IMG/VR virus record: IMGVR_UViG_3300035698_001663
Coordinates: 1 to 28,816 of that record
Length of the DNA stretch: 28,816 bases
Source of the DNA: a virus
Reading direction: 5' to 3' (one strand)
How positions within the stretch are numbered: the first letter of the stretch is position 1; each line of letters begins with the position of its first letter. Below are positions 1-24,200 of this stretch, piece after piece. The notes beneath the pieces were generated by a model. That model searched no databases, was not told the DNA's origin, and saw nothing but the letters and a program-made list of their open reading frames with translations. The position numbers were made by a program, and so were the translations under genes.

Positions 1-53
1 AAAGCATCGAGCACCTTGGATGGGGAGACGCCTTCTTTATTCGTAGACCATGA
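1..53 (+). CDS. 3' end of an upstream gene (partial)
   Basis: A reading frame enters from the left edge and ends with TGA at 51-53. Its visible C-terminus is SIEHLGWGDAFFIRRP. The stop overlaps the next start as ATGA, the same coupling used between later genes of this operon, which is the main reason to think the frame is real. Too little protein is visible to name a family. It is probably another member of the sugar/surface operon. Confidence 0.55.
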   Translation, partial: SIEHLGWGDAFFIRRP

Positions 54-781
54 AAAAAATAGTACTAGGACAGCCTGGAGCCTTTGGAGATCTTCTCATC
101 TGCGCTCCTATTGCTGAGATCTTATCGGAACAGTATGAAGTAGTTTGGCCCTGTGGGGCTGAACACCTTTCCACCCTAGAGAGGTTCAGTTACGTCACCC
201 CCCTGGTCCTACCCAGGCTAACCATGTTCAATCATGGAGACGAAAACGAGAACACTTACTCCTCTAGGATCTATATGGGAATGATTATTGCCGACTCGAT
301 TGGTGCTGAGTACCTTAATCTAGGCAACCGAGTCTTTGAAAACAATACCGTAGCTGATACTCCCCACCCTGGATTAACAGTTGAGGAGTACAAGTACCAA
401 CAAGCGGATATTCCTTTTGAAGCAAAGCAGCAACTCAGATACAGCCGGAACACAGACAAGGAGTCTAGACTCTACGATGAAATGGTTGAACCGGCAGAAG
501 AATACGTCTTTGCTCACTTACTTCAGTCGGATGGTACTAGGGCTGTTATGCCTGAGAAAGAAAAGAGGAAAGTGATTGAGTGTTTGCCCCATGAGGGCTA
601 TGATATATTCGATTGGGCTAAGGTGATCGCTGAGGCTAAGGCCATCTACTGCATTGAGAGCAGCCTGCAGTGCCTTGTTGACGGTAGAATAAATACCTTT
701 AAACAACCCAAGTACCTTCTAACCACAAAACCAGGCCGTACTACGACCGTATCTGCGGGCTGGGACAAACGATATATATGA
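50..781 (+). CDS. Glycosyltransferase family 9-like (heptosyltransferase-like) protein
   Basis: This 243-residue protein opens with GQPGAFGDLLICAPIAEIL, which matches the N-terminal Rossmann motif of GT-B ADP-heptosyltransferase-like enzymes (G-x-x-GD-x-L...P). A C-terminal stretch with AIYCIESSLQCLVDGR resembles the nucleotide-sugar-binding region, where family members have a short Ser/Thr-rich segment followed by a helix. It is shorter than typical GT9 enzymes (about 320-350 residues), so it may be a reduced version. The likely role is transfer of a sugar onto a surface glycan or virion component. It is coupled to its neighbours by ATGA overlaps at both ends. The family-level call is by motif only; acceptor and donor cannot be read from sequence. 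Confidence 0.6.
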   Translation: MKKIVLGQPGAFGDLLICAPIAEILSEQYEVVWPCGAEHLSTLERFSYVTPLVLPRLTMFNHGDENENTYSSRIYMGMIIADSIGAEYLNLGNRVFENNTVADTPHPGLTVEEYKYQQADIPFEAKQQLRYSRNTDKESRLYDEMVEPAEEYVFAHLLQSDGTRAVMPEKEKRKVIECLPHEGYDIFDWAKVIAEAKAIYCIESSLQCLVDGRINTFKQPKYLLTTKPGRTTTVSAGWDKRYI

Positions 782-1269
782 ACTACGTTTACTGTCAAGG
801 TGAAAAGTACCCTGAGTTCCAAGCTAGGGGCAATGCTGCAAAGTATATTATGCCTATGGCTTTGGAATACTGTGAAGGCGAGGGAGTGGATGTAGGATTT
901 GGTAAACCAGAATGGCAGATGCCTAACTCTATTGGTGCTGATCTAGCAGACGACTCTAATGAGTACGATGCTTATTGCCTTCCTACAGACCTAGATTACG
1001 TCTTTTCTAGTCACTGTCTTGAACACCTAGTTAGCTGGGTACGCGCAATTAGCTATTGGGCAATGTGCCTAAAGCAAGGAGGAACTATGTTTCTCTACCT
1101 CCCCCACCCAGACCAAGTATACTGGAGACCCTGGAACAACCCTAAGCACAAGCATATTCTCCATCCCCAAGATGTCGAAAACTGCATGAAGTTCTATGGA
1201 CTTGGAGCGACCACAGTAACAGGGATAGACCTAAATCACTCCTTCGCAATAACCGGAACCAAACTATGA
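778..1269 (+). CDS. Small class I SAM-dependent methyltransferase
   Basis: The 163-residue product has GVDVGFGKPEW (a variant of the SAM-binding glycine loop of motif I), then DLDYVFSSHCLEHL, which fits the motif in which a central strand is followed by S-x-x-x-LEH in Methyltransf_11-type enzymes, and LKQGGTMFLYLPHPD (motif III region). The ending LNHSFAITGTKL is a plausible final beta-hairpin. It is short but contains the full SAM-binding core. The start is ATG overlapping the stop of the glycosyltransferase (ATGA). In this operon it could methylate a sugar or a sugar-peptide acceptor; the substrate is unknown. Confidence 0.7.
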   Translation: MNYVYCQGEKYPEFQARGNAAKYIMPMALEYCEGEGVDVGFGKPEWQMPNSIGADLADDSNEYDAYCLPTDLDYVFSSHCLEHLVSWVRAISYWAMCLKQGGTMFLYLPHPDQVYWRPWNNPKHKHILHPQDVENCMKFYGLGATTVTGIDLNHSFAITGTKL

Positions 1270-2057
1270 AAAAGATCGCATTCAGTACTTGGTGTACAGA
1301 CGACTACATTAACAAAGTAGGGCTAGAGGGTCTCAAAAACTCTCTAGCCTATTTTCATCCTGAGATCCCTCTGTTCGTATATGATACAGAGAAGACACAG
1401 GGGCTAAAGATTCAGTGGGGAGCTTTAGCTAAACCTTACTTCATGATGCCTCTTACTTGTATTGACCTAGCTGAGGGCTACGATATGGTTATCCATATTG
1501 ATGCTGACAGTACAGTGACAGGCCCCCTGACTGAGCTTCTAGAGTCTGATGAGGACATCATTGGAGTAGTGAATAACAACTCCCAAGGCAAAGCAGGACG
1601 ATGCCCCGGAATCACTATTCAGGATATCCCTGTAGCAGACTTTCTGAATGCTGGCCTTGTTGGCAGTAATAACCTTCAGTTCTGGAGGGATTGGAGAGGA
1701 CTGAATCACAGGTACGGTGAGAAGTTTGAAGGACATGAACAAGATATCCTAAACATCATGGCTAAGAGTGAGGACTTCTCTGTTAAGATCCTAGACCCAA
1801 TCGGTAGTGAGATTTCCTACGGACAGTCTAACGTCTGGGGGACTGAAACTCATTGGGATAGCTGGAGCCTGATGTACATGAAGGATAACCAACTCTGCTT
1901 GGATGATCCTGTCACAGAAAAAACAATGGTAGTGAAGGTGCTGCACCAAGCTGGAGGCAATGCTTCGATCTATCCCATGCGTCCTTGGATGGACTCAATT
2001 GTAGCCGATGATGTCCGAGACTACCTTCACATAATTTGTAATGAAAGACAAGATTGA
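1266..2057 (+). CDS. GT-A fold glycosyltransferase-like protein
   Basis: The 263-residue protein begins with MKKIAFSTWCTDDYI, typical of nucleotide-diphospho-sugar transferases, and has a DxD metal/donor motif at residues 79-81 in the context MVIHIDADSTV. A later stretch, FLNAGLVGSNN, followed by EGHEQDILNIM, resembles the conserved 'N-x-G' and 'D-Q-D' segments of GT8-like enzymes, which bind the acceptor and close the active site. The start overlaps the upstream stop as ATGA. The 3' end overlaps the next gene by 17 nt. The likely role is sugar transfer in the surface-glycan pathway; donor specificity is not predictable. Confidence 0.65.
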   Translation: MKKIAFSTWCTDDYINKVGLEGLKNSLAYFHPEIPLFVYDTEKTQGLKIQWGALAKPYFMMPLTCIDLAEGYDMVIHIDADSTVTGPLTELLESDEDIIGVVNNNSQGKAGRCPGITIQDIPVADFLNAGLVGSNNLQFWRDWRGLNHRYGEKFEGHEQDILNIMAKSEDFSVKILDPIGSEISYGQSNVWGTETHWDSWSLMYMKDNQLCLDDPVTEKTMVVKVLHQAGGNASIYPMRPWMDSIVADDVRDYLHIICNERQD

Positions 2058-3324
2058 CAAGTTCCTGGCTTCTCTTGATGACGAGGATATTCTTCGGTAC
2101 GCCTATAACCAGAAATGCGATATTCCAGTATACTATTCAGGCCCTTCTTGGGACCGAGAGGAGCTTTCCGCAGCTATAAGTTCTCTGGTGTGTGGGCAAT
2201 GGCTATCCTCAGGGGAAGAGGTAACCAAGTTCGAAAAGCAGTTCGCCCAAAGTGAGGGCGTAAACTCTGCTCTAATGGTGAACTCAGGTAGCTCTGCTAA
2301 CCTAGTACTCCTAGCTGCTTGCAAGAAGCATTACGGCTGGTCCGATGATTCTGAGATTGTAGTTTCAGTAGTCGGCTTCCCCACTACCATTGCGCCTATT
2401 GTCCAGAACAACATGGTGCCTAAGTTCGTGGATATCGAAATGGATAGCCTGAACTTCAACCTAGAGCTAGTAGAAGAAGCTATCACAGATAAGACTGTAG
2501 CCATCTTCCTCTCCCCAGTTCTGGGTAATCCATGCGACATGGAAGAACTTAGTAGGATTTGCATGGAGAAGGATGTCATGCTCCTTCTAGATGGGTGCGA
2601 TAGCTTTGGTACACAATACCTAGGACAGCCCCTAGCCAAGTATGCAACTGCTACCACTTGTTCCTTCTACCCTGCTCACCACATTACTACAGGGGAAGGA
2701 GGCATGGTCTACTCAGATGATACTCGTCTCATTCAAATTGCTCGTAGCATTGCTTGGTGGGGTAGAGACTGTTTCTGTGTAGGCTCATGTAACCTCCTAG
2801 CCAATGGAATGTGTAACAACAGGTTCTCTAACTGGCTACCTGATTATGATGGTATCGTAGACCACAAATATGTCTTCACTAATGTAGGGTACAACCTAAA
2901 GCCTCTTGATCTACAAGGAGCCATCGGGCAGGTTCAACTAAAGAAGGCACCTAAACTACATGAGAGAAGACAGAGGAACAAGATTCGAATTAGTTCTATT
3001 ATGTCTAAAGTTGTTAGCGGCATCAGGATTCCCCTTAGCGAGAGAAACTCTACGGTGTCTTGGTTTGGAGTCCCTATTATCTGCTGCAACGATGAACTGA
3101 AACTCAAACTAGTCTCCTTCCTAGAGGCAAACAAGATTCAGACAAGGAACTACTTCGCTGGCAATATCCTCATGCACCCAGCCTACAGAGACCTGGGTAA
3201 TTTTAGAGACTACCCCAATGCTAACGAGGTGTTAGAGAGAGTCTTCTTCCTAGGCACCTCCCCCTCCTACTCAGAAACTACCTTCGATTACATCGAAGAC
3301 GTAATGAAAAAATGGCAAGAGTAA
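2041..3324 (+). CDS. rfbH: RfbH-like CDP-4-keto-6-deoxyhexose 3-dehydratase (E1-type, PMP-dependent)
   Basis: This 427-residue DegT/DnrJ/EryC1 fold protein has the hallmarks of the 3-dehydratase branch rather than of a sugar aminotransferase. The segment SFYPAHHITTGEGG places His (213, with a second at 214) where aminotransferases have the PLP-binding Lys, as in RfbH/AscC and ColD. Four cysteines at residues 244, 246, 250 and 258 (DCFCVGSC then C) match the [2Fe-2S] site of the E1 dehydratases, although the last gap is longer than I expect for the family. SGSSANLVLL is the PMP phosphate-binding loop. The known reaction removes the C3 hydroxyl of a nucleotide-linked 4-keto-6-deoxyhexose and needs a reductase partner (E3), which is not in this window. 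Confidence 0.85.
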   Translation: MKDKIDKFLASLDDEDILRYAYNQKCDIPVYYSGPSWDREELSAAISSLVCGQWLSSGEEVTKFEKQFAQSEGVNSALMVNSGSSANLVLLAACKKHYGWSDDSEIVVSVVGFPTTIAPIVQNNMVPKFVDIEMDSLNFNLELVEEAITDKTVAIFLSPVLGNPCDMEELSRICMEKDVMLLLDGCDSFGTQYLGQPLAKYATATTCSFYPAHHITTGEGGMVYSDDTRLIQIARSIAWWGRDCFCVGSCNLLANGMCNNRFSNWLPDYDGIVDHKYVFTNVGYNLKPLDLQGAIGQVQLKKAPKLHERRQRNKIRISSIMSKVVSGIRIPLSERNSTVSWFGVPIICCNDELKLKLVSFLEANKIQTRNYFAGNILMHPAYRDLGNFRDYPNANEVLERVFFLGTSPSYSETTFDYIEDVMKKWQE

Positions 3325-5093
3325 AAGTATCAGACTACATCTTCGATTACCTTCGTAGGAACATTGATTGCGACCATGCTTTCTCTCTGACAGGAGGAGG
3401 TAGTATGCACCTGAATGATTCCCTTGTGAATAGGGGGTTTGAAGTAGTCTACACTCACCATGAGCAGGCTGCTGCTATGGCTGCGGTAGCATATGCTAAG
3501 ACTAACAATAAGACAGGACTGGCAGTAACAACTACAGGCTGTGGGTCTACCAATGCTATCACAGGACTTCTAGATGCCTGGCAGGACAGCATCCCCGTCA
3601 TCTTTATCTCAGGACAGGTTAACGTAAAGCACACCTGTACTATTAGGAAGGGTATTAGGAAGCTTGGTGTACAGGATTCCAACATCATTGATATCGTAAA
3701 GCCTATCACCAAGTACGCTAAGATAGTTACCGAAGCTTCGCAGATTCAAGAAGCCTTAGAGACTGCTGTTATCAAAGCTACGATGGGAAGACCTGGCCCC
3801 GTATGGCTTGATATCCCTCTGGATATTCAATCAGCCTACATTGAAGAACCTACTAAGGAAAAGGTTTCTTTTGTGCTTAATCACCCCACCAAGCCTACCT
3901 GGCAACTATCCCAGCTTGTAGAGAAGATGAATGCGGCTGAACGCCCTATCTTCCTTGTTGGAAATGGAGTATACCTGGCTGGAGCAGAGCGCATTTTCTG
4001 TATTCTAGCTAAAGAAGCTAACATTCCATATGTAACTACGTTCCTAGGTAAGAACGTATCCCCTGAAGAGGAGGGGAACTTGGGCACTGTGGGTATCAAG
4101 GGCAGCAGATCAGGCAACTTCGCTCTCCAAAGGGCTGACCTAGTAATTGCTATTGGTACTAGTCTAAGCGTGCCTGTTACTGGATACAACTTCGATCACT
4201 TTGCTCCTGATGCTGAGGTTGTAGTTATTGACATCGACCAACAGGAACATCAGAAGGATACCGTTAAGATTGATGAGCTAATCGTAGCTGATGCTTTGTT
4301 TGCTTGCAACTACCTCCTCAATCTAGAACCAAAGTACAATTGTTGGAAGTGGAGAGCGGAGTGTTTGGATAACCACCATGAGTGGGGCATTACCAAAAAG
4401 TCAAGTGCTTCTGGACCCGTTAGTATCTACACACTCCTAAAGCAGATTAGCAAGATAGCTATGCCTGACACTGTTTTTGTTGCTGATGCTGGCTCTGCTT
4501 TCTATGCTTCCTGTCAAGCTCTTAAGCTTCGCAATAAACAAAAACTCATCGTCCCTGGTGCTCAAGCTGAAATGGGATTTACCATCCCCGGAATGCTAGG
4601 TGCTGCGAAAGCAAATCCTGATTCCCTAGTGTTCGGAATTACCGGGGAAGGTTCCTTTATGACGAATGTACAAGAACTGCAAACCTTAAAAGATAATGGA
4701 GTTTGTGGTGCCCTCTTTGTCATTAAGAATGGAGGCTACAGTTCAATTAAGAATACCCAAGATAAGTTCTTTGGAAGGAGAACAGGTGTAGATGAAAATT
4801 CAGGTGTAGGCTTCCCTAGAATTGAAAAAGCAGTAAGAGCTTTTGATATTACAGCTTACACTGTTGACAGTACTGCTGCACTGGATGATATCTCTGCACT
4901 TCAATGTAAGATCAGGTTGGAAGGACTGGTAGTTTTTGTTGTTGATTGCATTGAACAGGAGCAAATCATTCCCTCATTGGCAGTTGAGAAGGCCGAAGAC
5001 GGGACTATTATAACTAGACCTCTGGAGGATATGTACCCCCTGATGAGTCGAGAGGAATTCCATTACAAAAGAAAAGGTAGCCCCTTAGAGTAG
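3312..5093 (+). CDS. Thiamine-diphosphate enzyme, acetolactate synthase (IlvB) family
   Basis: The 593-residue protein has the three-domain layout of the ThDP/acetolactate synthase family. The Pyr domain has the activating Glu51 in THHEQAAAMAAVAYA. The middle domain has the LVGNGV / NLGTVGIKGS / DLVIAIGTSL run. The PP domain has GEGS at about residue 445 followed by KNGGYSSI, the GDG-to-NN ThDP/Mg motif with Glu in place of the second Asp. Family members include YerE, which adds a two-carbon unit to CDP-4-keto-3,6-dideoxyglucose to make a branched sugar, so the position immediately after an RfbH homologue (13-nt overlap) is suggestive. Other possibilities are a decarboxylase or lyase acting on a keto acid. 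The fold call is firm; the substrate is inference. Confidence 0.85.
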   Translation: MARVKVSDYIFDYLRRNIDCDHAFSLTGGGSMHLNDSLVNRGFEVVYTHHEQAAAMAAVAYAKTNNKTGLAVTTTGCGSTNAITGLLDAWQDSIPVIFISGQVNVKHTCTIRKGIRKLGVQDSNIIDIVKPITKYAKIVTEASQIQEALETAVIKATMGRPGPVWLDIPLDIQSAYIEEPTKEKVSFVLNHPTKPTWQLSQLVEKMNAAERPIFLVGNGVYLAGAERIFCILAKEANIPYVTTFLGKNVSPEEEGNLGTVGIKGSRSGNFALQRADLVIAIGTSLSVPVTGYNFDHFAPDAEVVVIDIDQQEHQKDTVKIDELIVADALFACNYLLNLEPKYNCWKWRAECLDNHHEWGITKKSSASGPVSIYTLLKQISKIAMPDTVFVADAGSAFYASCQALKLRNKQKLIVPGAQAEMGFTIPGMLGAAKANPDSLVFGITGEGSFMTNVQELQTLKDNGVCGALFVIKNGGYSSIKNTQDKFFGRRTGVDENSGVGFPRIEKAVRAFDITAYTVDSTAALDDISALQCKIRLEGLVVFVVDCIEQEQIIPSLAVEKAEDGTIITRPLEDMYPLMSREEFHYKRKGSPLE

Positions 5094-5114: not shown

Positions 5115-6695
5115 ATGCTAAATAGAAAGATAATTACTACTAAAGCCATTAAGCTTGCAAGGCGTTCTAATACTGACGCCTTTTCCGATGCTGACGTTAC
5201 AGAGGTGTTCAATGATCTAGTAGCAGAGTTTGAGATTGTCCCTGTTCCTCCCCCATCTGAAGGACTTGTAGGGGTAGTTGTAGGTGGAATCGAATATGCC
5301 CTACCCATCGGAACCCAGTCCCATCTTGGTAATGGTTTGTACCTTACTCCTTGTGATGATTTTGGGATTAAGACTCTGGTTTTCACCAATCCTAATACGA
5401 GTAGGATCAGCTATGAGTTTACCTGTCTTGAGTGGACTCTTACTGGTGCTTCTGCCCTTGTTGCTGGTGGAGTAGGGGTCTTCCAAAGCATCTATAACTT
5501 CAATGATGATTGGGTTTCTAGTGTAGACTACAATATCTTCGATGAGCTATCTATCCCTGGTAAGCAAGCAGTTAGTAAGTTCTGGAGTCATAACGCAAGC
5601 GTCCTTCTAGGCCAACACCAATATCCCTATGACCTGAATGAGGGTAGTGGATTCCTTGTATACCCTAACCAGAGTTGGATGAACTGCCCTGATGGTATTC
5701 GTCTAGCCTGTCAATACGTCCGTCGCTATGCTAACTGTATTTCTACGGCTTTCCCTTTAGCTATTAAAGAGCATGGGTTCATTGGAAATGATGGTAGCAA
5801 GTCCTACATTTGGGGCGAGCGTTATGGTATTAAGACACCTGGATTCAACTATGTTGCTATTATCCATAACGGTAATCTTAGGGAGCTAGACCATGAGCAC
5901 CTTGGACGAATTACCCACCTGGCTTATCGTCTTGCGAAGCTTGGTTTCGTCTGGGCGAAGAAGGTTATGGAGCATATCGTTATGGAGGTACGTCAGAAGT
6001 GGCTTACCCCTAACACTTCAGACGGAAACATCAAGAGAGTTTCCTGGTGGAGTGTTGATGGATTCCTCGAAACCCCCGAATACGCAGGTAAGGGCTCAGA
6101 ACACGTTGGCCGAGATACTGGTCATGTTCTAACTGCATTAGCTTACGGGGTAGATCTTGGACTAGCAACCAACGAAGAACTAGAGCGAATGATTTACTTC
6201 GTGGAGTATATGTTCGTCTTCGACCTGCCGGATGTTGCTCATATGCTTTACTATAAGGATCCTGTAACGGAATACGAAAGTAATGCGTGGGAGAGGAAGT
6301 TACAAGATTACCTACATGAGATCCCCCCTAACCTCCCAGCACGCACGAAAGAGAAGATTAGCCTAGTGGTGGGTTTCGAAGAGGTAATCATTGCTTGTGG
6401 TTTGTTTGTTGCTTCTCAAATCCAAGGCTCTCGCGGATTGAATAATAATTCTGCTTCTAACCTATTCCATATAATGTTCGACTCCATCAGCGATACTCCT
6501 GATATGCTTCAGGTCTTCTACGAAGGGGAGTACATGAAGAGCCTTTCCGATACTAGGAGTAGTACCTGGGTGAACTACTTCCTTAATGATCCTCTTGCAC
6601 TAGAGCACGCTAAAACCCTGGCAGGTAATAGTGATTTCGCTTCTAACCCTACTACCCTAGTCCTAACCAACGACTTCCCCTACAGACAACCATGA
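5115..6695 (+). CDS. Unrecognised 526-residue protein within the sugar operon
   Basis: I do not recognise this family. The start is supported by a clear AAGGAAG ribosome-binding site before ATG 5115, unlike most neighbours, which rely on overlap coupling. The first 50 residues look like a short helical head. Residues 50-150 are beta-rich (GLVGVVVGGIEYALPIGT). The rest is rich in aromatic residues and in paired helices such as GRDTGHVLTALAYGVDLGL. This could be a helical-toroid carbohydrate-active domain or a virion-attached receptor-binding protein, but no catalytic motif is evident. No signal peptide or membrane segment is visible. It ends in an ATGA overlap with the PanB-like gene. Confidence 0.75.
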   Translation: MLNRKIITTKAIKLARRSNTDAFSDADVTEVFNDLVAEFEIVPVPPPSEGLVGVVVGGIEYALPIGTQSHLGNGLYLTPCDDFGIKTLVFTNPNTSRISYEFTCLEWTLTGASALVAGGVGVFQSIYNFNDDWVSSVDYNIFDELSIPGKQAVSKFWSHNASVLLGQHQYPYDLNEGSGFLVYPNQSWMNCPDGIRLACQYVRRYANCISTAFPLAIKEHGFIGNDGSKSYIWGERYGIKTPGFNYVAIIHNGNLRELDHEHLGRITHLAYRLAKLGFVWAKKVMEHIVMEVRQKWLTPNTSDGNIKRVSWWSVDGFLETPEYAGKGSEHVGRDTGHVLTALAYGVDLGLATNEELERMIYFVEYMFVFDLPDVAHMLYYKDPVTEYESNAWERKLQDYLHEIPPNLPARTKEKISLVVGFEEVIIACGLFVASQIQGSRGLNNNSASNLFHIMFDSISDTPDMLQVFYEGEYMKSLSDTRSSTWVNYFLNDPLALEHAKTLAGNSDFASNPTTLVLTNDFPYRQP

Positions 6696-7588
6696 AAAGA
6701 ACCCTATTAAATCTTCTGGACAGAACTAAAAAGCAGGTATGGGTTACAGCCTACGATTACTGTACTGCTTGTGCTGCATCCCAAGCTGATGTGTGTGCAA
6801 TTCTTGTTGGAGATTCAGGAGGTATGGTGAATCTAGGTTATTCCACTACGAACCCCGTCACTATGGATGAGATGATTTCCATGTGTCAAGCTGTTCGTAG
6901 AGGAGCACCCAAAACGTTCCTCATTGGGGATATGCCCCAAGGATCTTATGAGGTTAGCGATGAGGAGGCTGTCCGTAACGCTATGAGGTTCATCAAGGTA
7001 GGTGGTGTTGATGCTATTAAATTGGAGGGATGCAACCAAAGGATAGTGAGTAGTATTAGGGCTATTTCCCAAGCAGGAATCGTAGTAGTAGGTCATGCTG
7101 GCCTAACACCCCAATCATCAGCTAAGTTTGGTGGGTATCGAGTTCAGGGGAAAACTAGGGAGTCTTATATCAGTCTGCTCAGTAACATTAGGCTTCTATC
7201 CCTAGATTGCTCTCTAATCCTAATTGAAGCTGTCCCCAAGGAAGTAGGTCGATCTATCTACAAGAATACTATTAAGAACGACACTCCCCTCATTGGTATT
7301 GGAGCAGGGCCACACATGGACGGCCAGCTACTAATTTGTGCTGATATCACAGGCACCTACCCTAACTTCACTCCCTCCTTCGCCAAGTGCTATGTGCCAC
7401 AGGCAATTGCTAGGGCAGAAGAGTACTCTTCCCAGGCCACTAGCTCAGGGTACAACCTAATGTTTTCTTGCTTCCTTGAATACATTACGGAGGTTGAATC
7501 TGGTGCCTTCCCAAGCGATGAGTTTTGCTACCACCTAACCAATGCTCAACTGGAAGATCTAAAAGGATATTATGATTTCACCGAATGA
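6692..7588 (+). CDS. panB: PanB-like 3-methyl-2-oxobutanoate hydroxymethyltransferase
   Basis: The 298-residue product follows PanB motif by motif: LVGDSGGM (Asp41), IGDMPQGSY (Asp80), IKLEG (Glu112), VGHAGLTPQSSAKFGGY, LIEAVPKE (Glu179), GIGAGPHMDGQ and EVESGAFPS. These correspond to the Mg ligands and catalytic glutamate known in E. coli PanB, so the active site appears intact. The known reaction transfers a one-carbon unit from methylene-tetrahydrofolate to 2-oxoisovalerate to make ketopantoate, the pantothenate/CoA precursor. No other pantothenate gene is nearby, and it sits between an unknown protein and an SDR in a sugar operon, so it may have been recruited to hydroxymethylate another 2-oxo acid. 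The start overlaps upstream as ATGA. Confidence 0.9.
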   Translation: MKRTLLNLLDRTKKQVWVTAYDYCTACAASQADVCAILVGDSGGMVNLGYSTTNPVTMDEMISMCQAVRRGAPKTFLIGDMPQGSYEVSDEEAVRNAMRFIKVGGVDAIKLEGCNQRIVSSIRAISQAGIVVVGHAGLTPQSSAKFGGYRVQGKTRESYISLLSNIRLLSLDCSLILIEAVPKEVGRSIYKNTIKNDTPLIGIGAGPHMDGQLLICADITGTYPNFTPSFAKCYVPQAIARAEEYSSQATSSGYNLMFSCFLEYITEVESGAFPSDEFCYHLTNAQLEDLKGYYDFTE

Positions 7589-8408
7589 AGGTAAGACTGT
7601 TGTAGTTACGGGAGCCACTGGATTCATTGGTAGCCACGTTGTTATAGAGCTAGAGAAAAGTGGTTACTGCGTAGTAGCTCTTGAAGGAAGAGAGATGCTA
7701 AACCTGTTAGATGGGAAAGCGGTACATACGTTCCTTAAGGAAACTGACCCCACGTTCATTGTACATTGTGCAGGAGAGCAAGGCTTCCGTGAGTCTGACC
7801 AGACGCCTGAACTATTCTACAACAATGTAATGATGTTTCAACACCTGCTTAAGTGGGTTAGAGGGGCTGGTAGAGGTATGTGCAAACTAATCAATCTGTC
7901 CTCTGGGTGTGATAATAGAACTGATACTTACTACTCTGCGTCTAAGAGTGTTATCAAAGACTTTATTACTACTTCTGTCGTTCACCTAGTTCCCTTTGGA
8001 GTATTTGGTATGGGGGAAAGCTCTAACCGATTCTTCCCTACCTGCTTCGAGGCTTGTGCTAGAGGAGAACCAATCAAGATCTTTCAGGATAAGCTAATGA
8101 GTTACGTCTATGTCAAGGATCTAGCTCGCATGATTGAGAGTATTCTGTCTGTAGAAGCAACTCAGCCTAGTTATACACGGAGAGTTCACGCTGTATACGA
8201 TAAGCATACTTCCGAGTACCTATCAGACTTTGCTGAAATGGTATGCTCTGTAACAGGAGCCGCTGTACCCATTTGGGTATCACAATATAACATGGATGAG
8301 CCCGACTATCGTGGCTTCTCTAATAAACAAGGACATCCCTTCCTGTATGAAGGGTCAATTTTAGAAGGAATTAAGGAGTACTACGCAGAATGGAAAAACG
8401 AGCAATAG
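7572..8408 (+). CDS. NAD-dependent epimerase/dehydratase/reductase (extended SDR)
   Basis: The 278-residue protein has the N-terminal dinucleotide motif VVVTGATGFIGSHV, HCAGEQGFRESDQTPELFYNN in the region after strand 4, a Ser-rich strand (NLSSGCD) and the Tyr121-x-x-x-Lys125 catalytic pair in YSASK. The segment SYVYVKDLARMIESIL is the conserved end of the substrate domain. It resembles GDP-fucose-synthase/4-keto-reductase type enzymes but is a little shorter than the usual 310-330 residues. Here it could reduce the 4-keto group of the sugar product made by the upstream enzymes. It overlaps PanB by 17 nt and the next gene by 19 nt. Confidence 0.85.
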   Translation: MISPNEGKTVVVTGATGFIGSHVVIELEKSGYCVVALEGREMLNLLDGKAVHTFLKETDPTFIVHCAGEQGFRESDQTPELFYNNVMMFQHLLKWVRGAGRGMCKLINLSSGCDNRTDTYYSASKSVIKDFITTSVVHLVPFGVFGMGESSNRFFPTCFEACARGEPIKIFQDKLMSYVYVKDLARMIESILSVEATQPSYTRRVHAVYDKHTSEYLSDFAEMVCSVTGAAVPIWVSQYNMDEPDYRGFSNKQGHPFLYEGSILEGIKEYYAEWKNEQ

Positions 8409-9367
8409 TTTGTGGAGCCGGTGGTTTCATCGGTGGTCACATGGTTAAACGTCTTCTAGAAGAAGGCTATCAGGTAGTTGGTGTTGACATCAAACGTAAA
8501 CAGGACTGGTATCAACTGGATGAACGAGCACTAAATAAAGGCTGCTTTGATCTGCGTAATGCAGAGCACTGTATGTCCCTCCTACGCTCTCATCCTTCTG
8601 AGCTTTACCAGCTTGCTGCTGATATGGGTGGTGCTGGATACATCTTTACTGGAGAGCACGATGCTGACGTTATGCATAACTCAGCCTCTATCAATCTCAA
8701 CATCGCTAATGCGGTTAAAGAGAACGCTCCCAAGTGTAAGGTCTTCTACTCTTCCTCAGCCTGCATCTACCCAGGCGAGAATCAGACAGATCCAGAGAAC
8801 CCTAACTGCAAGGAGGACTCTGCTTATCCCGCTAACCCAGACTCAGAATACGGGTGGGAGAAACTATTCTCCGAACGTCTATGGAAGTCCTACTCTAGGA
8901 ATTATGGTATCCAAGTTCGTATCGCTAGGTTCCACAATATCTTTGGGCCTTATGGCACTTGGACAGGTGGAAAAGAGAAAGCTCCTGCTGCAATGTCTCG
9001 TAAAGCTATCCTAGCTGGTGAGTCTATGGAGGTCTGGGGGCCAGGAACTCAGACACGCTCTTTCCTATACGTTGACGAATGCGTGGAGGCCGTTCGACGC
9101 CTAATGCAGGCAGACACAGAGAGCATTATCAACATCGGCTCTGATGAAATGATATCCATTAACGGGCTGGCTCGTATGGCTCTTTCCATTGTAGATAAAG
9201 ACTCTACCTGCATTGAAAACATTGAGGGTCCAGTAGGAGTAATGGGTCGCTGTTCTGACAACACTCTCATGGAACAAGTCCTCGGCTGGAAACCCTCTAT
9301 GACTCTTGTAGAAGGCATGGAATTTACTCTGGATTGGATCCGAGAAGAGATGGTTACCAAGGTATAA
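8390..9367 (+). CDS. GDP-mannose 3,5-epimerase-like extended SDR
   Basis: The 325-residue protein matches plant-type GDP-mannose 3,5-epimerase (GME) unusually well for a phage protein. It has GAGGFIGGHMV at the N-terminus, LAADMGGAGYIF, SSACIYP with catalytic Cys125, Tyr154-x-x-x-Lys158 (YGWEK), RFHNIFGPYGTW, and GGKEKAPAA with Lys197. Cys and Lys at these places are the acid/base pair of GME. The known reaction converts GDP-D-mannose to GDP-L-galactose or GDP-L-gulose. It is the last gene of the sugar operon, and its stop (TAA 9365-9367) lies inside the TATAAT element of the next transcription unit. Confidence 0.88.
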   Translation: MEKRAIVCGAGGFIGGHMVKRLLEEGYQVVGVDIKRKQDWYQLDERALNKGCFDLRNAEHCMSLLRSHPSELYQLAADMGGAGYIFTGEHDADVMHNSASINLNIANAVKENAPKCKVFYSSSACIYPGENQTDPENPNCKEDSAYPANPDSEYGWEKLFSERLWKSYSRNYGIQVRIARFHNIFGPYGTWTGGKEKAPAAMSRKAILAGESMEVWGPGTQTRSFLYVDECVEAVRRLMQADTESIINIGSDEMISINGLARMALSIVDKDSTCIENIEGPVGVMGRCSDNTLMEQVLGWKPSMTLVEGMEFTLDWIREEMVTKV

Positions 9368-9821: not shown

Positions 9822-10030
9822 TGCCTTTTTACCAATACCACTGTTCAGGGTGTGATATGATTTGGGAGAAGTTCGCCTCTATGACAGAGGACTACATTAA
9901 CCCAGCTACCCACTGTCCTGAATGCGACCCTAAAGAGAAAGAGGAGGGAACCATGCAAAAGTATCTTGGAGATTGCACCCCTAGGTTTAACCTCAAGGGT
10001 AACGGTTGGTTTAAAGGAGGTATGTCGTGA
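9821..10030 (+). CDS. FmdB-like zinc-ribbon protein
   Basis: The 69-residue protein starts MPFYQYHCSGCDMIWE and has CPEC at about residues 37-40, giving the C-x-x-C...C-x-x-C zinc ribbon of the FmdB regulatory family. The end, FNLKGNGWFKGG, matches the family's usual short tail after the ribbon. Such proteins are often small nucleic-acid- or protein-binding factors; no enzymatic role is indicated. It sits between MazG and a hypothetical gene with one-base or four-base overlaps, so it is certainly co-transcribed with them. Confidence 0.8.
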   Translation: MPFYQYHCSGCDMIWEKFASMTEDYINPATHCPECDPKEKEEGTMQKYLGDCTPRFNLKGNGWFKGGMS

Positions 10031-10542
10031 TTGAACCGAAAGAAGATCAAGATGAGACGCTTCGTAACCACCTCAGAGAAGGGCTTCTCCGTCTAGATGA
10101 TGGCTTCCACTACTTCCCCGAAAACAGGAGAGCCATTAGCTCGCATGAGATTCGAATTATTGGAGAACTTCTCGAAGAGAAAAACAAGGAGTGGGATAAG
10201 CAAGTAAAGAAAGACCTTGCGAAAAGAAGTGTTGATATGACGATCCACGAAAAGGCTTTCGCCAGAGTCATGAAAAAAATGGAAGGAAACGTAGTCCAAT
10301 TCCATGCGAAGCATGGCGTTACCTCCTTCCACCCTAAGAACCAAACCCAAGTTCTAAGTATGGCCCGGATTATGTTCACGGCTAGGTATGAAGAAGGATG
10401 GTACTCTGACGATGAGGGGTGCCCTTTCCCAGCCGATAGGATTTACGAAGATTACCTCTCCCGACACGCTCTCGTGTATCTCTATGCTCGTAGTGTTCGG
10501 GAGTATGAAGGAATTGAAGTCTTCAAACCAGAGCCCCTGTAA
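10027..10542 (+). CDS. Conserved phage hypothetical protein
   Basis: This 171-residue protein starts at GTG 10027, overlapping the zinc-ribbon stop as GTGA. The N-terminal half has ISSHEIRIIGELLEEKNKEWDKQVKKD, a helical segment of a kind often seen in hypothetical proteins of T4-like phages. The C-terminal half contains YEEGWYSDDEGCPFPADRIYEDYL. No catalytic motif, signal peptide or membrane span is seen. The next gene begins at the last base of its stop (TAATG). The function is unknown; operon position suggests a role near nucleotide or replication metabolism. Confidence 0.75.
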   Translation: MIEPKEDQDETLRNHLREGLLRLDDGFHYFPENRRAISSHEIRIIGELLEEKNKEWDKQVKKDLAKRSVDMTIHEKAFARVMKKMEGNVVQFHAKHGVTSFHPKNQTQVLSMARIMFTARYEEGWYSDDEGCPFPADRIYEDYLSRHALVYLYARSVREYEGIEVFKPEPL

Positions 10543-10877
10543 TGAAACTTAATAGCCCGCCGATGAGGGCAGCCCGACTTGAATCTGAGAAATCCACTCA
10601 CCGTTTCAAGATTGGTGCTGCCATTGCCAAAGGCAAAAAAGTTCTAAGCAAAGCTTCTAACACCAATAAGACTAACCCTCGGTTTGGTAGTGGTAATTAT
10701 GATACCCTACACGCCGAGGGTCACGCTATCTATAGAGCAGTAAGACAGGGAATTGATATCTCTGGGGCTAGCATTTACGTCTATAGGCTTAACGAGAACC
10801 TCGCCAAGCCTTGCCCTGGGTGTATGGCTCTGATTAGAAAGTTTGGTATCAAAGAAGTGGTGTATACTGGAGTCTGA
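10542..10877 (+). CDS. Cytidine/deoxycytidylate deaminase-fold protein
   Basis: The 111-residue product has the zinc-site motifs of the CDA superfamily: LHAEGHAI (His57, Glu59) and PCPGCMALI (Cys91, Cys94). The strand-loop FKIGAAIAKGKKVLSKASN before them is the usual KxG...G...N element. It is shorter than dCMP deaminase, and a second, fuller dCMP deaminase lies at 19008, so this one may act on a different cytidine- or guanine-type substrate. All zinc ligands and the catalytic Glu are present. It directly precedes the recombinase, and its stop is 4 nt before the next TATAAT. Confidence 0.8.
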   Translation: MKLNSPPMRAARLESEKSTHRFKIGAAIAKGKKVLSKASNTNKTNPRFGSGNYDTLHAEGHAIYRAVRQGIDISGASIYVYRLNENLAKPCPGCMALIRKFGIKEVVYTGV

Positions 10878-10880
10878 GTC

Positions 10881-10886
10881 TATAAT
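10881..10886 (+). promoter_or_regulatory. TATAAT -10 element placed 5 nt before ATG 10892
   Basis: TATAATAAGGCATGAAC repeats the 9363 element with two changes, including the same 5-nt gap to ATG. The best -35 candidate at 17-nt spacing (10858-10863) matches TTGACA poorly. The expected +1 falls on or next to the A of the start codon, giving a leaderless recombinase mRNA. No Shine-Dalgarno sequence is visible downstream of that point. Confidence 0.6.
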
Positions 10887-10891
10887 AAGGC

Positions 10892-11866
10892 ATGAACAGT
10901 AACGTCATTGAAAAGCTAAAGAACGCGGGGCTTCTATCAGATTCAGTAGAAGATTTAGGCTTTGTTTCCACAGGAAGCTATGCTCTAAACAAGGTTATCT
11001 CAGGTAACTATCGAGATGGTATCCCTATTGGGGGTATCAGTCAGTTTCATGGTGAGGCGAGTACTGCTAAGACTGTATTCGCTACCCATATCCTGAAGGA
11101 AGCCCAAGCTCTAGGGCATTACACAATGCTGGTAGATAGTGAGAACGCTTACAATGCAACGTTCGCAGAGCATCTGGGCCTTGACCCAAAGAAGCTAATC
11201 TACGCTGCCCCAGAAACCGTAGAGGATTGCTTCAACGTCATAGAGCAGACTATCAAGGAGATTAGGGAGCTAGACAAGGACACCCCTATTGTCATTGCAT
11301 ACGATAGTATAGCTGTCTCTCCTTCCAAGGCAGAGTACGAAGCTGAGAACTACGATGGCAACAATATGCAGGGAGCAGTTAGAGCTAAGTGTGTGGGTAA
11401 TTGCCTGAAGAAGATCAACCCTATCCTCCGCAAGTATAAGGTAGCCCTCATCATCATCAATCAGATCAGAAACAAGGTGGGTGTTATGTTTGGTAGTCCA
11501 GACACAATGGCTTCTGGTGGTAAGTCCCTAGAGTACTACCTGTCAGTCAATATGAAAACGATCTCGAATAAGACAAGCGATCTTATCAAGGATGAGCATG
11601 GTGACGCTATGGGTATTGAGGGACGCCTCCGTAACACTAAAAATAAGGTATCCCTACCCTTCCGAGAGACTGAGTTCAGACTACTATTCAATAAGGGCCT
11701 GATTCCTCACTATGGCCTGTTGGAAGAACTTGTGAAGGAAGGAACAGTAATTCAGGGTGGAGCCTGGTATACCTTTGGGGACATGAAATTCCAAAAGAAG
11801 ACGTTTATCGACCAGTTCCCTACAGAAAAGTTCAAGCCCATTAGAGATCACCTGGGTCTTTCCTAA
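10892..11866 (+). CDS. uvsX: UvsX/RecA-family strand-exchange recombinase
   Basis: The 324-residue protein has a RecA-type ATPase core. The Walker A loop is HGEASTAKTVFATHIL (GEASTAKT, residues 54-61), with Ala where the canonical loop has Gly. Walker B is TPIVIAYDSIAV, and VALIIINQIRNKVG followed by MASGGKSLEYYLS matches the loop L1/L2 region of phage UvsX. Substitution of the Walker A glycine also occurs in T4 UvsX. The protein forms presynaptic filaments on single-stranded DNA for recombination-dependent replication and repair. It appears to start its own transcription unit from the TATAAT at 10881. Confidence 0.9.
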   Translation: MNSNVIEKLKNAGLLSDSVEDLGFVSTGSYALNKVISGNYRDGIPIGGISQFHGEASTAKTVFATHILKEAQALGHYTMLVDSENAYNATFAEHLGLDPKKLIYAAPETVEDCFNVIEQTIKEIRELDKDTPIVIAYDSIAVSPSKAEYEAENYDGNNMQGAVRAKCVGNCLKKINPILRKYKVALIIINQIRNKVGVMFGSPDTMASGGKSLEYYLSVNMKTISNKTSDLIKDEHGDAMGIEGRLRNTKNKVSLPFRETEFRLLFNKGLIPHYGLLEELVKEGTVIQGGAWYTFGDMKFQKKTFIDQFPTEKFKPIRDHLGLS

Positions 11867-19466: not shown

Positions 19467-19929
19467 AAACGGTTGGAGAGATATTCGAGAAGAGGCATTA
19501 AAGTCCCACCAGTACTCAGTTCCCTACTTGGAGACTGATCTATACTCTGGAGAGTGGGACGTACTGCCTCTTATTACGTTTGGTAGACAGCATTACGTTA
19601 ATACTCAAATGTGCCCTAAGACCTGGGACTTAGTAAAAGACATCCCAGGGCTACAGACCGCAAGCTTCTCCATTCTTAGGTATCAGACTGAGATTACTCC
19701 CCACACTGGGTTTACCGATGAGGTACTTAGAGCACATCTGGCGCTAAAGATTCCCAAAGAGAACTGTGGACTCCGTATCGAAAACCAAGAAGTCAAATGG
19801 GTTGAGGGGGAGGCTTTTGTCTTCAATGACAGAAACCTCCACTCAGTATTTAATCTGTCCAGCGAATCACGAATCATCCTAATTATCGATTTCCTTAAAG
19901 ATGCAAATTCTAGCGAACGAAGCCTTTAG
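19414..19929 (+). CDS. Aspartyl/asparaginyl beta-hydroxylase-fold oxygenase
   Basis: The 171-residue protein follows the Asp/Asn hydroxylase (PF05118) pattern: MCPKTWDLVKDIPGL, then ILRYQTEITPHTGFTDEVLR with His97, HLAL with His108, and FVFNDRNLHSVFN with His143. The histidines are the expected iron and 2-oxoglutarate ligands of this two-His family, which includes LpxO, a lipid A hydroxylase. The TTG start at 19414 is supported by AGGAG 6 nt upstream. It overlaps dCMP deaminase by 53 nt. The substrate could be a protein, a lipid or a metabolite and cannot be settled from sequence. Confidence 0.82.
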   Translation: MSSFTQTSKEFPFLQQLENGWRDIREEALKSHQYSVPYLETDLYSGEWDVLPLITFGRQHYVNTQMCPKTWDLVKDIPGLQTASFSILRYQTEITPHTGFTDEVLRAHLALKIPKENCGLRIENQEVKWVEGEAFVFNDRNLHSVFNLSSESRIILIIDFLKDANSSERSL

Positions 19930-20956
19930 CTTTGACGATGTTCTTCTCGTACCTCAGAAGTCTGAGATCTGGAGTAGAACAACAGGTTGTGACACAACCA
20001 CAACTCTTGGGACTCTAAAGCTTCCCATCCCCATCATTGCAGCAAACATGGATACCATCACAGGGCACGATATGATCCTTAGCATGAATTCCTATGGGGG
20101 AGGTGCTGTTCTTCACAGGAATATGCCAGCTATGGAAGCTCTGCATATTGCAAATGAAATTCCCTACAACGCAAATCTGATGGTTGCTGTTGGAATTTGG
20201 TCTAATGATGCTACGAGAATTAAAGGGCTATTAGATCTAGCAAAGAGACGACCTATCACATTCTGTATTGATGTTGCTCATGGGCACTCAATGGCAATGG
20301 AACAAACCATTAAGAAGATTAGAGATAGTGGTTTTGAGGGAGATATCATTGCAGGCAATGTTGTTACTCGTCAAGCCGTAAGAGATCTTGAGATTTGGGG
20401 AGCAACTATAGCAAAGGTAGGAATTGGTCCTGGCTCTGCTTGCACCACAAGAACTAAAACAGGTTGTGGCTTTCCTCAATTGGCTGCCGTTGCTCAGTGT
20501 GCTGATGTGAGCATTCCTGTAATTGCAGACGGTGGTATCAGAAGCCCTGGGGACGCAGCTAAGTGCTTGGCCGTAGGAGCCGCAGCAGTAATGGTAGGAG
20601 GCGTCCTAGCTGGATCTGACCGTACTATCGGGTGGGATCCTCGGAAGGCTTACAGTCAATTCAGAGGGATGGCCTCAAGGGATGCCAAAGAGGTTCTGAA
20701 TCAAAAAGTAGTCAACATGGAAGGTATCTCCAAAGCAGTACCAACCCTCCCAGCAGGAAGTACAAAGATGATCGTGCAATACTTCCAAGAGGGAATCAAA
20801 TCAGCTATGTCCTATGTTGGGGCTAGAAACCTAAACGAGTTCAGAGAAAAGGCAGTCTTTGTTCGTGCTACTTCCAATATTACCAATGAAAACTCTCCTC
20901 ACGATGCCTCAGTAGGAGACCAGCTTTACGGGGAACCCAATGTCTCACTACGATGA
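19901..20956 (+). CDS. guaC: GMP reductase-like enzyme (IMPDH/GMPR family)
   Basis: The 351-residue TIM-barrel protein lacks the CBS insert of IMP dehydrogenase and is the length of GMP reductase (E. coli GuaC is 347). The active-site loop KVGIGPGSACTTRTKTGCGFPQ has the catalytic Cys181 and the T-R-T-K-T-G form typical of GMP reductase rather than IMPDH. The C-terminus with FRGMASRDAKEV and SYVGARNLNEFREKAVFVR also fits. The known reaction is GMP + NADPH to IMP + ammonia. In a phage it would shift guanine nucleotides towards IMP/adenine, or act on a modified purine. It overlaps the neighbour genes on both sides. Confidence 0.85.
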   Translation: MQILANEAFSFDDVLLVPQKSEIWSRTTGCDTTTTLGTLKLPIPIIAANMDTITGHDMILSMNSYGGGAVLHRNMPAMEALHIANEIPYNANLMVAVGIWSNDATRIKGLLDLAKRRPITFCIDVAHGHSMAMEQTIKKIRDSGFEGDIIAGNVVTRQAVRDLEIWGATIAKVGIGPGSACTTRTKTGCGFPQLAAVAQCADVSIPVIADGGIRSPGDAAKCLAVGAAAVMVGGVLAGSDRTIGWDPRKAYSQFRGMASRDAKEVLNQKVVNMEGISKAVPTLPAGSTKMIVQYFQEGIKSAMSYVGARNLNEFREKAVFVRATSNITNENSPHDASVGDQLYGEPNVSLR

Positions 20957-21295: not shown

Positions 21296-24200
21296 ATGAG
21301 TAATACAAGCGGAATTTCAGGAAACGTCAACGAGATCTCTTTCTTAGGGAGCAAAACTTGCCAAAGTAGAAGCGTACATTGGGCTACTAGGGAAGGAGAT
21401 GTACGAGCTAAGATTTTCAAGATGACTAGAGAGAGAGATAATATCTCCTTCGTCTACCGAGAGAGTCTTAGAGGCATGATGGCATCAATTAATGATATCG
21501 TCTACCTTACCTCTGATATGAAGTCTACGGATATCAAGGTAATGCACGCTAATGCTGAAAGAGCAGTAGCCAAGCTCACCCAGGAGAATAACATCATTCT
21601 CCCTGTTATCTCTATTGCTCAGACTACTACAAAGGATGATGACTCAAGACGTAGAAACGAGAGTATCCTTGTACATGAGAAGGTCTGGGATGAGGAGAAG
21701 AGACAGGCATTCAGAGTACTGAGCCTGGCCCCTAGACCAGTAAACATTCAGTACGATATCAATATTTGGTGTAAGTATCGTTCTGACATGGATCAAATCC
21801 TTGAGCAAGTGAGATTGAAGTTCAATCCAGAGATGCAAGTTCCTACTAAATTCTCTACACTAGCTAAGGCACACATCATTTCAGAAGATGATACTGGTTC
21901 TGTTGAAGCTGCTGATAAAGAAGATCGTCTAATCCGTAAGCGTATCTCTGTAGTACTAAGAACCTATATCCCAAGTCCAAGATACCTTGTTACCGCAACA
22001 GGTGAGATCACAGAGTTCAACGCTGATGTTTTTATTCCTAAGTCCGTTAGCAATGATGGATCACTAGGTTATGAGTCTGACAATAATGGAAATGTCTCCT
22101 TCAATACTGATGGAGACGGTAGCAATGATGCTAGTGGTGGTGATACAAGTGATACAAGTGATACAAGTGGAACAGATGGATCCGGTACAACCGGTGGAAC
22201 TGAAGACCTAACCTTCAATTTTGATATTAGCATTATCTTCGATCAGCACTACCTTAATTCAGATGCAGGGGAAGGCTCGTTGGGTTCGGAAGCTAATGCT
22301 ATTATGCGTAAGACTATCAATATTGATAGTGCTGATACTTTCGTCCGTGATGAAGTGAATGGCATGAGCTTCCTTTGGAAATATGCATCCCTACCTCTAA
22401 ACGATAGCTATATCCCTGGGTCTCCTACCTTTGGCATTCCGCCCGATAGTACCCTAGCAGACTTTGAAACTCTCTACGACCAACATTCCGATGGAGTAGG
22501 TTACCTCTCTGATAACAAAGCTCTGGGTATCCATGCTTGTGTTGTAGAGCATGACGAGTTCCCAGGATCCTTTGAGGTCAATGTAATGCTTACCAATGGC
22601 TTTCAGGCTGTTGGATTTGTCTACGGGAACTCCCTATCTGTTACGGTAACAGAAAACGTAACAGGAGAAACCAGACTGTATAAACAAACTACCCCTCTGT
22701 ACTTCCGTACAAGAGCCTGTCTGCCCGTAAAACTATCCTTTGGTGCTGATAGAGCCAGCCTAATCAATTGTACCCATTACGATATGGATGAGACAGATCT
22801 GGTTCCTCGTCCAACAGCATACAGAGATCAGATTGACGGTATTACTGCTGAGTACGATATCGTAGGGGGAGGAACTTATAAGAAGTCCGGTTTTGTCCAA
22901 CCCTGGTTCATGGGGAATAAGAACATGGGTAGTAGTACTGGGGGTAATGGTATTGCTCCTTATTGGGGATGGAGAAAGGGCAGACCAGGCGCTCGTCTAT
23001 GGAGAAGGGAGATGATGGGCGAGATTACTCGTTCAGAGATTGCTGCACTAACTCTTGCAACAGGAGAGCCCCTTCTGATTAATGGAGAGGTTAATGGAGC
23101 AACCACAGGTACGAAGCTAATCATCCAAGGAGGAGATCCATACTGGGGAGGTTCTGATAACAAATCCTTCCACCTTGCAGGCTACAATGAGTATGCCCTA
23201 GGTCTAGGTTCTGGTTTGAACACTTCTAATCTACAAGGAACTGACCCTGTTGCGTACAACCTATTTCCTAAGTTTAATGATACTAATAACAACCTAAGAA
23301 GTTGGCTAGACGATGGTATTTTTCACGGTACATTCCTAAGAACTGCCGTTGGTGGAAACATCCTCGAACCAAGAGATCACAACGCAACTAAATGGACTAG
23401 GCACGCACATACCCACCTGTCTAGAGAATACAGAGCAGCAGCAGAGCTAGCAAGAAAAGATCCTTTGGCTAGACTGTGGATGAAGTTTTCCTTCTGGAAT
23501 GTTAAACAATGGTTCAGCCAAACTAGATTCGATGATGACAGTTCTACTCTAACAAAAAGTATTAACAAGCTTACCTTGGATGCTTTTGCACCTGGAGGAG
23601 ATGCTGGTGGCGGTACAACTTGGGGGGATAGAGGTTTCTCTCAACCAACTAGACTAATCACAACCGTTAATAGGCTCAACGCTGAATGCACTACTGGAAC
23701 TGGCCCTGTTCCCGATGCAGAAGCACAAGTGTCTAGATCCGAAGTTGCTAGGGCTGTAGACGCTGGTATCCATACTAATTATGGTTTCATGTTTAGGAAA
23801 TCAGTAAACTCAGGTCAAGCTCTAGCTTTGAAGGCAGTTTGGCTAATGAACCCTCAGTATGCCAACAACTTTAATCTAGCTAACCTAACTGATCCCACCA
23901 ACCAAGACTACCGGGATTCTAGCATTAGACTATCGAGAGGATTCCAAGCACAGTTGTTTGCTTCCTTGCTGAGAGATATTGAAGAAGGGACACCAGGCAA
24001 CATTGGTCTGTTTGAAAACAGTACTGCTGAACCTGGCAAAACTATCAACGCAAGATTACTAGAGAAGCTAGGTTTGTTCCGCACTACTTTTCCCAGTACC
24101 ACCAAAGTACCTAACTGGTTCGAACCAGAATGGATGACTAACTGGATTGCCCTTCGTGATGCAAAAGAGGCTGCTGTCGGCACATTAGGAGGAGATGGAT

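Follow-up and report, generated by a model that had tools for sequence, protein, structure and literature searches.

What does a phage make with a sugar dehydratase, a thiamine diphosphate (ThDP)-dependent enzyme and a relative of the vitamin B5 enzyme PanB, all encoded in one run of genes? The question is raised by IMGVR_UViG_3300035698_001663, a fragmentary IMG/VR virus entry of 28.8 kb, which was analyzed over its full 28,816 nucleotides and is referred to as the window. Its source is an uncultivated T4-like phage, recognizable by a UvsX-like recombinase (at 10892), a gp15-like domain in the open reading frame (ORF) at 21296 and three tRNA genes. A preliminary description of this DNA, made from the sequence alone, had proposed a phage branched-deoxysugar pathway around an RfbH-type dehydratase and the ThDP enzyme encoded next to it. 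The phylogeny of the ThDP enzyme, the diagnostic histidine and cysteine residues of the dehydratase, and genes for cytidine diphosphate (CDP)-glucose metabolism in a related phage all support that idea. The most informative gene, which the description did not list, encodes a protein of the ketopantoate hydroxymethyltransferase (KPHMT, PanB) family. We consider it likely that the genes between positions 50 and 9367 specify a phage-specific branched-deoxysugar pathway, in which the PanB-like enzyme makes a 4-hydroxy-2-oxo acid that the ThDP enzyme uses as donor.

These nine genes lie on the same strand (Table 1). Seven of the eight junctions are overlaps of 4-19 nt and the eighth is a gap of 21 nt, a layout as expected for one transcription unit. 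The 13-nt overlap between the dehydratase and ThDP genes, already reported in the preliminary description, is real and ordinary for this phage.

A phage lineage of PanB linked to the ThDP gene

The PanB-like protein matches Pantoate_transf (257 bits, cut-off 28.7) and TIGR00222 (213 bits, cut-off 207.6) over its whole length. A scan of IMG/VR with a ThDP enzyme profile gave 77 loci, of which 56 are distinct and 50 have informative flanks. PanB directly follows the ThDP gene in 35 of these 50 and lies nearby in three more, and in 50 of 51 informative loci with this gene order PanB is in turn followed by a gene for a short-chain dehydrogenase/reductase (SDR). The reverse scan, whose PanB profile came mainly from PanBs linked to ThDP genes, found a ThDP gene in the flank of all 80 loci inspected (the best 80 of 120 IMG/VR matches). 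Among the 62 distinct loci in this set, the order is ThDP-PanB in 41 and PanB-ThDP in 18, and the two genes are near each other in 3. As the group with the order PanB-ThDP was absent from the query profile, it provides independent support for the linkage.

Nearly identical PanBs can stand beside distant ThDP enzymes. In L083 and L215, two loci with swapped gene order, the PanBs are 92% but the ThDP enzymes only 36% identical; the corresponding values are 89% and 36% for L011 and L217, and 85% and 36% for L026 and L228. The pair must therefore have been broken and rebuilt repeatedly by recombination, which means that descent alone does not explain the linkage and speaks for a functional link.

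In the PanB tree, the viral proteins, the window's among them, form a single clade of 58 (support 100/99), separate from 16 PanBs of cellular origin or type, one of which is encoded by Microcystis phage MaAM05. All 58 share D45, S46, D84, K112, E114, H136 and E181 (E. coli numbers), and all 58 share the altered pocket residues V214I, I/V212L and V179L. Positions 202 and 212 have been engineered to change the 2-oxo acid scope of PanB, and V214G alters substrate use. Judging from these alignments, the viral enzymes have probably retained the chemistry of PanB and changed its 2-oxo acid pocket, probably to a smaller one.

Single-sequence scans of viral and bacterial contigs with PanB gave no match, and profile scans were needed. 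Among 50,697 phage records, there was no PanB with at least 60% identity to that of the window or to two other queries from the viral clade, so that the cassette is known here from uncultivated viruses only. Phage and plasmid matches to the ThDP enzyme and PanB that were obtained with tblastn were mostly housekeeping genes, apparently host DNA in phage-named records, and were not used as relatives. An assignment to the phosphoenolpyruvate (PEP) mutase and phosphonopyruvate decarboxylase of the aminoethylphosphonate pathway was rejected, PEP_mutase scoring 21 bits against the 257 bits of Pantoate_transf.

Two of the 50 informative ThDP loci (L047 and L065) have an HpcH/HpaI-family gene in the place of PanB, as do 7 of 80 bacterial loci listed. 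As a substitute for PanB, this aldolase family is only suggestive, since the DxEH catalytic histidine of YfaU is missing. The proteins L047:11766-12515, L065:11754-12569 and L086:8555-9367 keep the metal-binding glutamate and aspartate, and lack that histidine. In the PanB-less loci L002 (11770-14394) and L031 (11768-14392), the ThDP gene is followed by genes for DJ-1/PfpI, cupin, HAD-like and Ldh_2 (malate/lactate dehydrogenase type) proteins, which perhaps provide another route to the donor acid or process the branch.

The ThDP enzyme is YerE-like

The ThDP enzyme has all three TPP_enzyme domains (N, M and C) and the catalytic Glu51. Its ThDP motif is GEG instead of GDG, a variant also found in four other rows of the tree described below. 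The best solved relative is 8rph (330 bits, 35% identity; 216 bits for the next protein), the structure of JanthE, a YerE-like enzyme that joins 2-oxo acids to unactivated ketones (PMC12188165). The tree, a quick one of 120 rows with support from the Shimodaira-Hasegawa-like approximate likelihood ratio test (SH-aLRT), without bootstrap, and with JanthE as anchor of the YerE-like class, places the window enzyme inside a YerE-like clade of 111 rows (SH-aLRT 99). The inner clade with JanthE comprises 98 rows (SH-aLRT 99), and the window enzyme belongs to a 23-row, almost entirely viral clade (support 100) within the YerE-like clade. E. coli IlvB, IlvI and Gcl, as well as Oxc and PoxB, fall outside. 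A grouping with acetolactate synthases or oxalyl-CoA decarboxylases had been named beforehand as speaking against the sugar pathway; the enzyme sits on the YerE-like side. Annotation libraries do call it an acetolactate synthase, at scores far below the curated cut-offs (312 versus 738 and 305 versus 538 bits).

The JanthE hot spots V121, P293 and Y297 are conserved in the window enzyme as V120, P288 and Y292. JanthE K567 corresponds to Ser555, and the same change in JanthE raised tertiary-alcohol formation fivefold. A structure model of the window enzyme (predicted local distance difference test (pLDDT) score 82.8) superimposes on 8rph with a root-mean-square deviation of 2.8 over 585 residues.

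Two variants of the viral enzyme deserve mention. In L067, L070, L071/L072, L074/L075 and L078, the YerE-like enzyme is split into two genes, around 10001-11841, that overlap or abut by a few nt and encode about 335-361 and about 251 amino acids (aa), the second part with the GDG-motif domain; this is possibly a two-subunit form. A second, diverged ThDP clade (VVYGAANGNLID, TMHEQ), with PanB upstream, is represented by L180, L184, L191, L193, L196, L212, L215, L217 and L235. Often found with it is a DegT protein that is ColD-like, of the His type, and devoid of Fe-S cysteines; the acceptor sugar of this clade is possibly a different one, based on guanosine diphosphate (GDP).

The dehydratase and the acceptor sugar

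The dehydratase gene, like the ThDP gene, is an open frame where the preliminary description had placed it, and its product is of the E1 type. NCBIfam RfbH is the best match (358 bits), well ahead of PseC (134 bits). The score stays under the curated equivalog cut-off of 423 bits, which makes the protein a diverged relative of E1 rather than a standard RfbH. Among solved structures, the E1 dehydrases 3bcx (254 bits) and 3bb8 (250 bits) score best, followed by ColD (165 bits). In the motif SFYPAHHITTGEGG, a histidine, present also in relatives, occupies the position of the catalytic lysine of DegT aminotransferases. Cys186, Cys244, Cys246 and Cys258 correspond to the ligands of the E1 [2Fe-2S] cluster, with the exact spacing C-x57-C-x1-C for the first three and a last loop that is four residues longer than in the E1 pattern C-x57-C-x1-C-x7-C. 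Conservation of the histidine and the cysteine cluster had been named beforehand as a check on the assignment; all are kept in the window dehydratase and in four other phage proteins. Dehydratases of the E1 type, with the histidine and the Fe-S cysteines, accompany 51 of the 56 distinct viral ThDP loci; E1-type dehydratases are also present in 35 of 80 bacterial or archaeal loci (best YerE-like matches listed).

E1 enzymes work with an E3 reductase, which the preliminary description had found missing from the window. Indeed, the AscD-type reductase domain PF00175 is absent there, and also from 45 more viral records (46 in all; fragments, including some of 642, 219 and 192 kb), so that the gap is not peculiar to this window. 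Plant-type ferredoxins are encoded in 7 of the 46 records, and the electrons for the dehydratase probably come from carriers of the host. An LdpA-like 4Fe-4S protein is encoded right after the ThDP or HpcH gene at L047:12517-13674 and L050:11818-12975; it could be the missing electron donor in these two phages.

Nucleotidyltransferases, which the preliminary description had also suggested looking for, are likewise missing from the window, and a cytidylyltransferase was found in a related phage contig, IMGVR_UViG_3300044799_000242 (the record behind L051). This contig has terminase and portal genes, and then in a row genes for glucose-1-phosphate cytidylyltransferase (RfbF, 377 bits, cut-off 300), CDP-glucose 4,6-dehydratase (RfbG, 492 bits, cut-off 278) and RfbH (669 bits, above the cut-off of 423), with ThDP, PanB and SDR genes 8 kb downstream. 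Apart from E3, a single phage contig thus encodes the whole route from glucose-1-phosphate to CDP-3,6-dideoxy-4-ketoglucose, which points to a CDP-3,6-dideoxy-4-ketohexose as acceptor. For the window, which has neither a cytidylyltransferase nor a CDP-glucose 4,6-dehydratase gene, CDP is suggested as the nucleotide only by analogy.

Proposed pathway and alternatives

PanB, one of the class II aldolases acting on 2-oxo acids, combines formaldehyde with many such acids to give 4-hydroxy-2-oxo acids (PMC7611260, PMC7610986, PMC10127515), and ErwE, the YerE-like enzyme of erwiniose synthesis, prefers 4-hydroxy-2-oxo acids as donors (PMC12247030). Because the product of the one is the preferred type of donor of the other, we propose the order PanB, ThDP enzyme, SDR. 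Of the yersiniose-like two-carbon branch that the preliminary description had envisaged, the YerE-type enzyme class stands; PanB points away from a simple acetyl branch made from pyruvate and towards a hydroxy-acyl branch like that of erwiniose.

The pathway would begin with a CDP- (or related) 4-keto-6-deoxyhexose, supplied by the host or by phage genes beyond the contig, from which the E1-type dehydratase would remove the 3-hydroxyl group with a borrowed electron donor. The PanB-like enzyme would extend a small 2-oxo acid by a one-carbon (C1) hydroxymethyl group. The ThDP enzyme would decarboxylate the resulting 4-hydroxy-2-oxo acid and join the remaining hydroxy-acyl unit to the 3,6-dideoxy-4-keto sugar, so that C4 becomes a tertiary alcohol carrying this unit as a branch. 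The ketone of this branch would then be reduced by the SDR encoded directly after PanB, and glycosyltransferases and a methyltransferase would attach and decorate the sugar. Every step has a precedent in its enzyme family; how the steps are joined here, from the substrates and the choice of 2-oxo acid to what the SDR does and where the sugar is attached, is what we infer. With somewhat less confidence than for the pathway as such, we favor the view that the phages have a PanB line of their own that no longer serves vitamin B5 synthesis, and supplies a hydroxymethylated 2-oxo acid to the neighboring YerE-like enzyme. This would be a two-enzyme route, C1 addition plus umpolung, of a kind not described in cells, and its products, e.g. 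4-C-(1,3-dihydroxypropyl)-3,6-dideoxyhexoses, would be new glycan units.

Several observations weigh against the proposed pathway. The window itself has no nucleotidyltransferase, 4,6-dehydratase or E3. In ten of the 50 informative viral ThDP loci, PanB and HpcH-type proteins are both absent, and the HpcH-like proteins in PanB's place at two loci lack the canonical catalytic histidine. The PanB pocket positions were compared by sequence rather than in a modelled complex, and fold comparison cannot separate the YerE-like enzyme (Z 45.2) from acetolactate synthase (Z 46.4). Moreover, there is no PanB near the YerE-like genes of 80 bacterial or archaeal loci (best matches listed), the neighbors of which are mainly SDR and glycosyltransferase genes, and so the idea cannot be anchored in a cellular cluster whose sugar structure is known. 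Beyond these best 80 matches, cells may still have a PanB-YerE pair.

The alternative that survives best, though we regard it as unlikely, is that the ThDP enzyme uses pyruvate to form a YerE-type acetyl branch, and that PanB hydroxymethylates the acetyl-branched sugar or makes a pantoyl-like ester decoration. Pyruvate is indeed the donor of YpYerE (PMC12247030), and in the ten loci without PanB the carboligase can evidently do without it. However, the PanB residues that handle metal, carboxylate and enolate are all invariant, which suits a free 2-oxo acid better than a sugar ketone; with the carboxylate- and metal-binding site untouched, PanB is less likely to act on the sugar at a later stage. 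PanB also stays beside the ThDP gene through recombination, and no acyltransferase was identified in the cassette with Pfam, NCBIfam or PHROGs.

Considerably less probable is a set of auxiliary metabolic genes (AMGs) that lie in a sugar island by chance, with the ThDP enzyme as acetolactate synthase and PanB feeding pantothenate and CoA synthesis. The top NCBIfam names, acetolactate synthase and PanB, would agree with this, as would phage MaAM05, which has a cellular-type PanB outside any sugar context together with pantoate ligase (PanC) and dihydroxyacid dehydratase (IlvD). Yet neither PanC (PF02569) nor IlvD (PF00920) occurs in the 32 viral ThDP-PanB records; these are fragments, and the absence is weak in any one record but not across all 32. 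For want of a PanC context we call the gene PanB-like and not PanB by role. The position of the ThDP enzyme outside the acetolactate synthase clade, its score of 312 bits against a cut-off of 738, the E1 dehydratase in 51 of 56 loci, and a ThDP-linked PanB clade that leaves out the cellular and MaAM05 proteins also speak against AMGs of this kind. In a KEGG-based AMG table, phage ilvB is assigned to the synthesis of branched-chain amino acids and pantothenate (PMC8226683). For Chlorobium phage contigs, the same table has ilvB alongside rfbG, possibly a sugar cassette of this kind that was filed under the wrong pathway.

That the dehydratase is really an aminotransferase, so that the cassette makes an amino sugar and the ThDP enzyme acts in an unrelated step, would fit the DegT family, which consists mostly of aminotransferases, and the PHROG label of the gene, but is hardly credible for a protein with histidine instead of the catalytic lysine, four Fe-S cysteines, and 254 bits to an E1 structure as opposed to 95 for the best sugar aminotransferase chain.

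Known systems and implications

The proposed phage pathway resembles the synthesis of yersiniose A in the Yersinia pseudotuberculosis O-antigen, where YerE acts on CDP-3,6-dideoxy-4-keto-glucose: an E1-type 3-dehydratase is followed by a YerE-like carboligase and an SDR, and the CDP-glucose route is matched in IMGVR_UViG_3300044799_000242. The phage cassette differs by its PanB-like enzyme, its location in a T4-like phage and the lack of an E3 in the 46 viral records. The likeness to ErwE of Pectobacterium atrosepticum is at the level of the YerE-like class, and the donor preference of ErwE fits the product of PanB chemistry (PMC12247030); in the literature searched, we did not find where erwiniose synthesis obtains its hydroxy-oxo acid. 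JanthE of Janthinobacterium sp. HH01 (8rph/8rpi/8rpj) belongs to the same clade and takes 2-oxo acids, both short and longer ones, as well as non-activated ketones, but has the ThDP motif CDG in place of GEG. Compared with PanB/KPHMT of E. coli and M. tuberculosis, the window protein matches over its whole length with catalytic residues kept and the TIGR00222 cut-off passed, whereas the viral PanBs are a separate clade with V214I, I212L and V179L, without PanC context and in a nucleotide-sugar operon. The cyanophages S-H68 and S-B43 (Kyanoviridae) have a phage RfbH at 54% identity and a GDP-mannose-3,5-epimerase-like protein in large glycan islands, in which, unlike in the window, no YerE-like ThDP or PanB gene was seen.

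We found no description of a ThDP-PanB sugar cassette in the literature searched, and a 2025 review regards viruses as unexplored for YerE-like enzymes, most predicted members of which have no known sugar structure (PMC12247030). What appears to be new is that sugar branching of the YerE/ErwE type is combined with a PanB specific to phages, the proposed source of the donor, in a cassette common to dozens of phages. It yields a prediction that can be assayed: which donor is made by which enzyme for which acceptor. Phage genes labelled ilvB or panB and counted as amino-acid or pantothenate auxiliary genes (ilvB so in PMC8226683) can be sugar-branching genes. The two enzymes would also be a natural pair for making chiral tertiary alcohols, a goal of present enzyme engineering.

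Other genes of the window

The remaining genes of the run are in part less clear. Both nucleotide-sugar enzymes of the preliminary description, the SDR and the GDP-mannose-3,5-epimerase-like protein, are real; the latter probably serves another nucleotide sugar of the same glycan. The methyltransferase is a weak match below the cut-off, and the two glycosyltransferases are a matter of resemblance, one of them scoring below the cut-off and the other, the first gene of the run, being without a family match in Pfam, NCBIfam or PHROGs. The orphan ORF between the ThDP and PanB genes has no family in the same three libraries and no relative in phages or IMG/VR; its single-sequence structure model is unusable (pLDDT 37).

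Table 1. Genes of the run at the start of the window.
Feature	Position	Strand	Length (aa)	Evidence
Possible glycosyltransferase (GTa), first gene of the run	50..781	+	243	Open frame; homologue with 47% identity, same order, in locus L008
Methyltransferase-like	778..1269	+	163	Methyltransf_23 24.6 bits, under cut-off 27; same order in L008
GT8-like glycosyltransferase	1266..2057	+	263	Glyco_transf_8 17.5 bits, under cut-off 24.3; 64% identity in L008
E1/RfbH-type nucleoside diphosphate (NDP)-4-keto-6-deoxyhexose 3-dehydratase	2041..3324	+	427	NCBIfam RfbH, E1 structures, His and four Cys
YerE-like ThDP-dependent carboligase	3312..5093	+	593	TPP_enzyme N/M/C, JanthE match, tree, structure model
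Orphan ORF, between ThDP gene and PanB in this window only	5115..6695	+	526	Open frame
PanB-like 2-oxo acid hydroxymethyltransferase	6692..7588	+	298	Pantoate_transf, TIGR00222, catalytic residues, viral PanB clade
Extended SDR (RmlD/epimerase type), proposed branch-ketone reductase	7572..8408	+		Epimerase 90 bits
GDP-mannose-3,5-epimerase-like SDR	8390..9367	+	325	2c59 295 bits; PHROG nucleotide-sugar epimerase 254 bits; 66% identity, same order, in L008

Further downstream, positions 19901-20956 of this T4-like phage encode a protein of the IMP dehydrogenase/GMP reductase type (PF00478, 254 bits). The ORF at 21296-24724 is 1142 aa long, and its domain resembling the T4 gp15 tail sheath stabiliser is confined to the first quarter.

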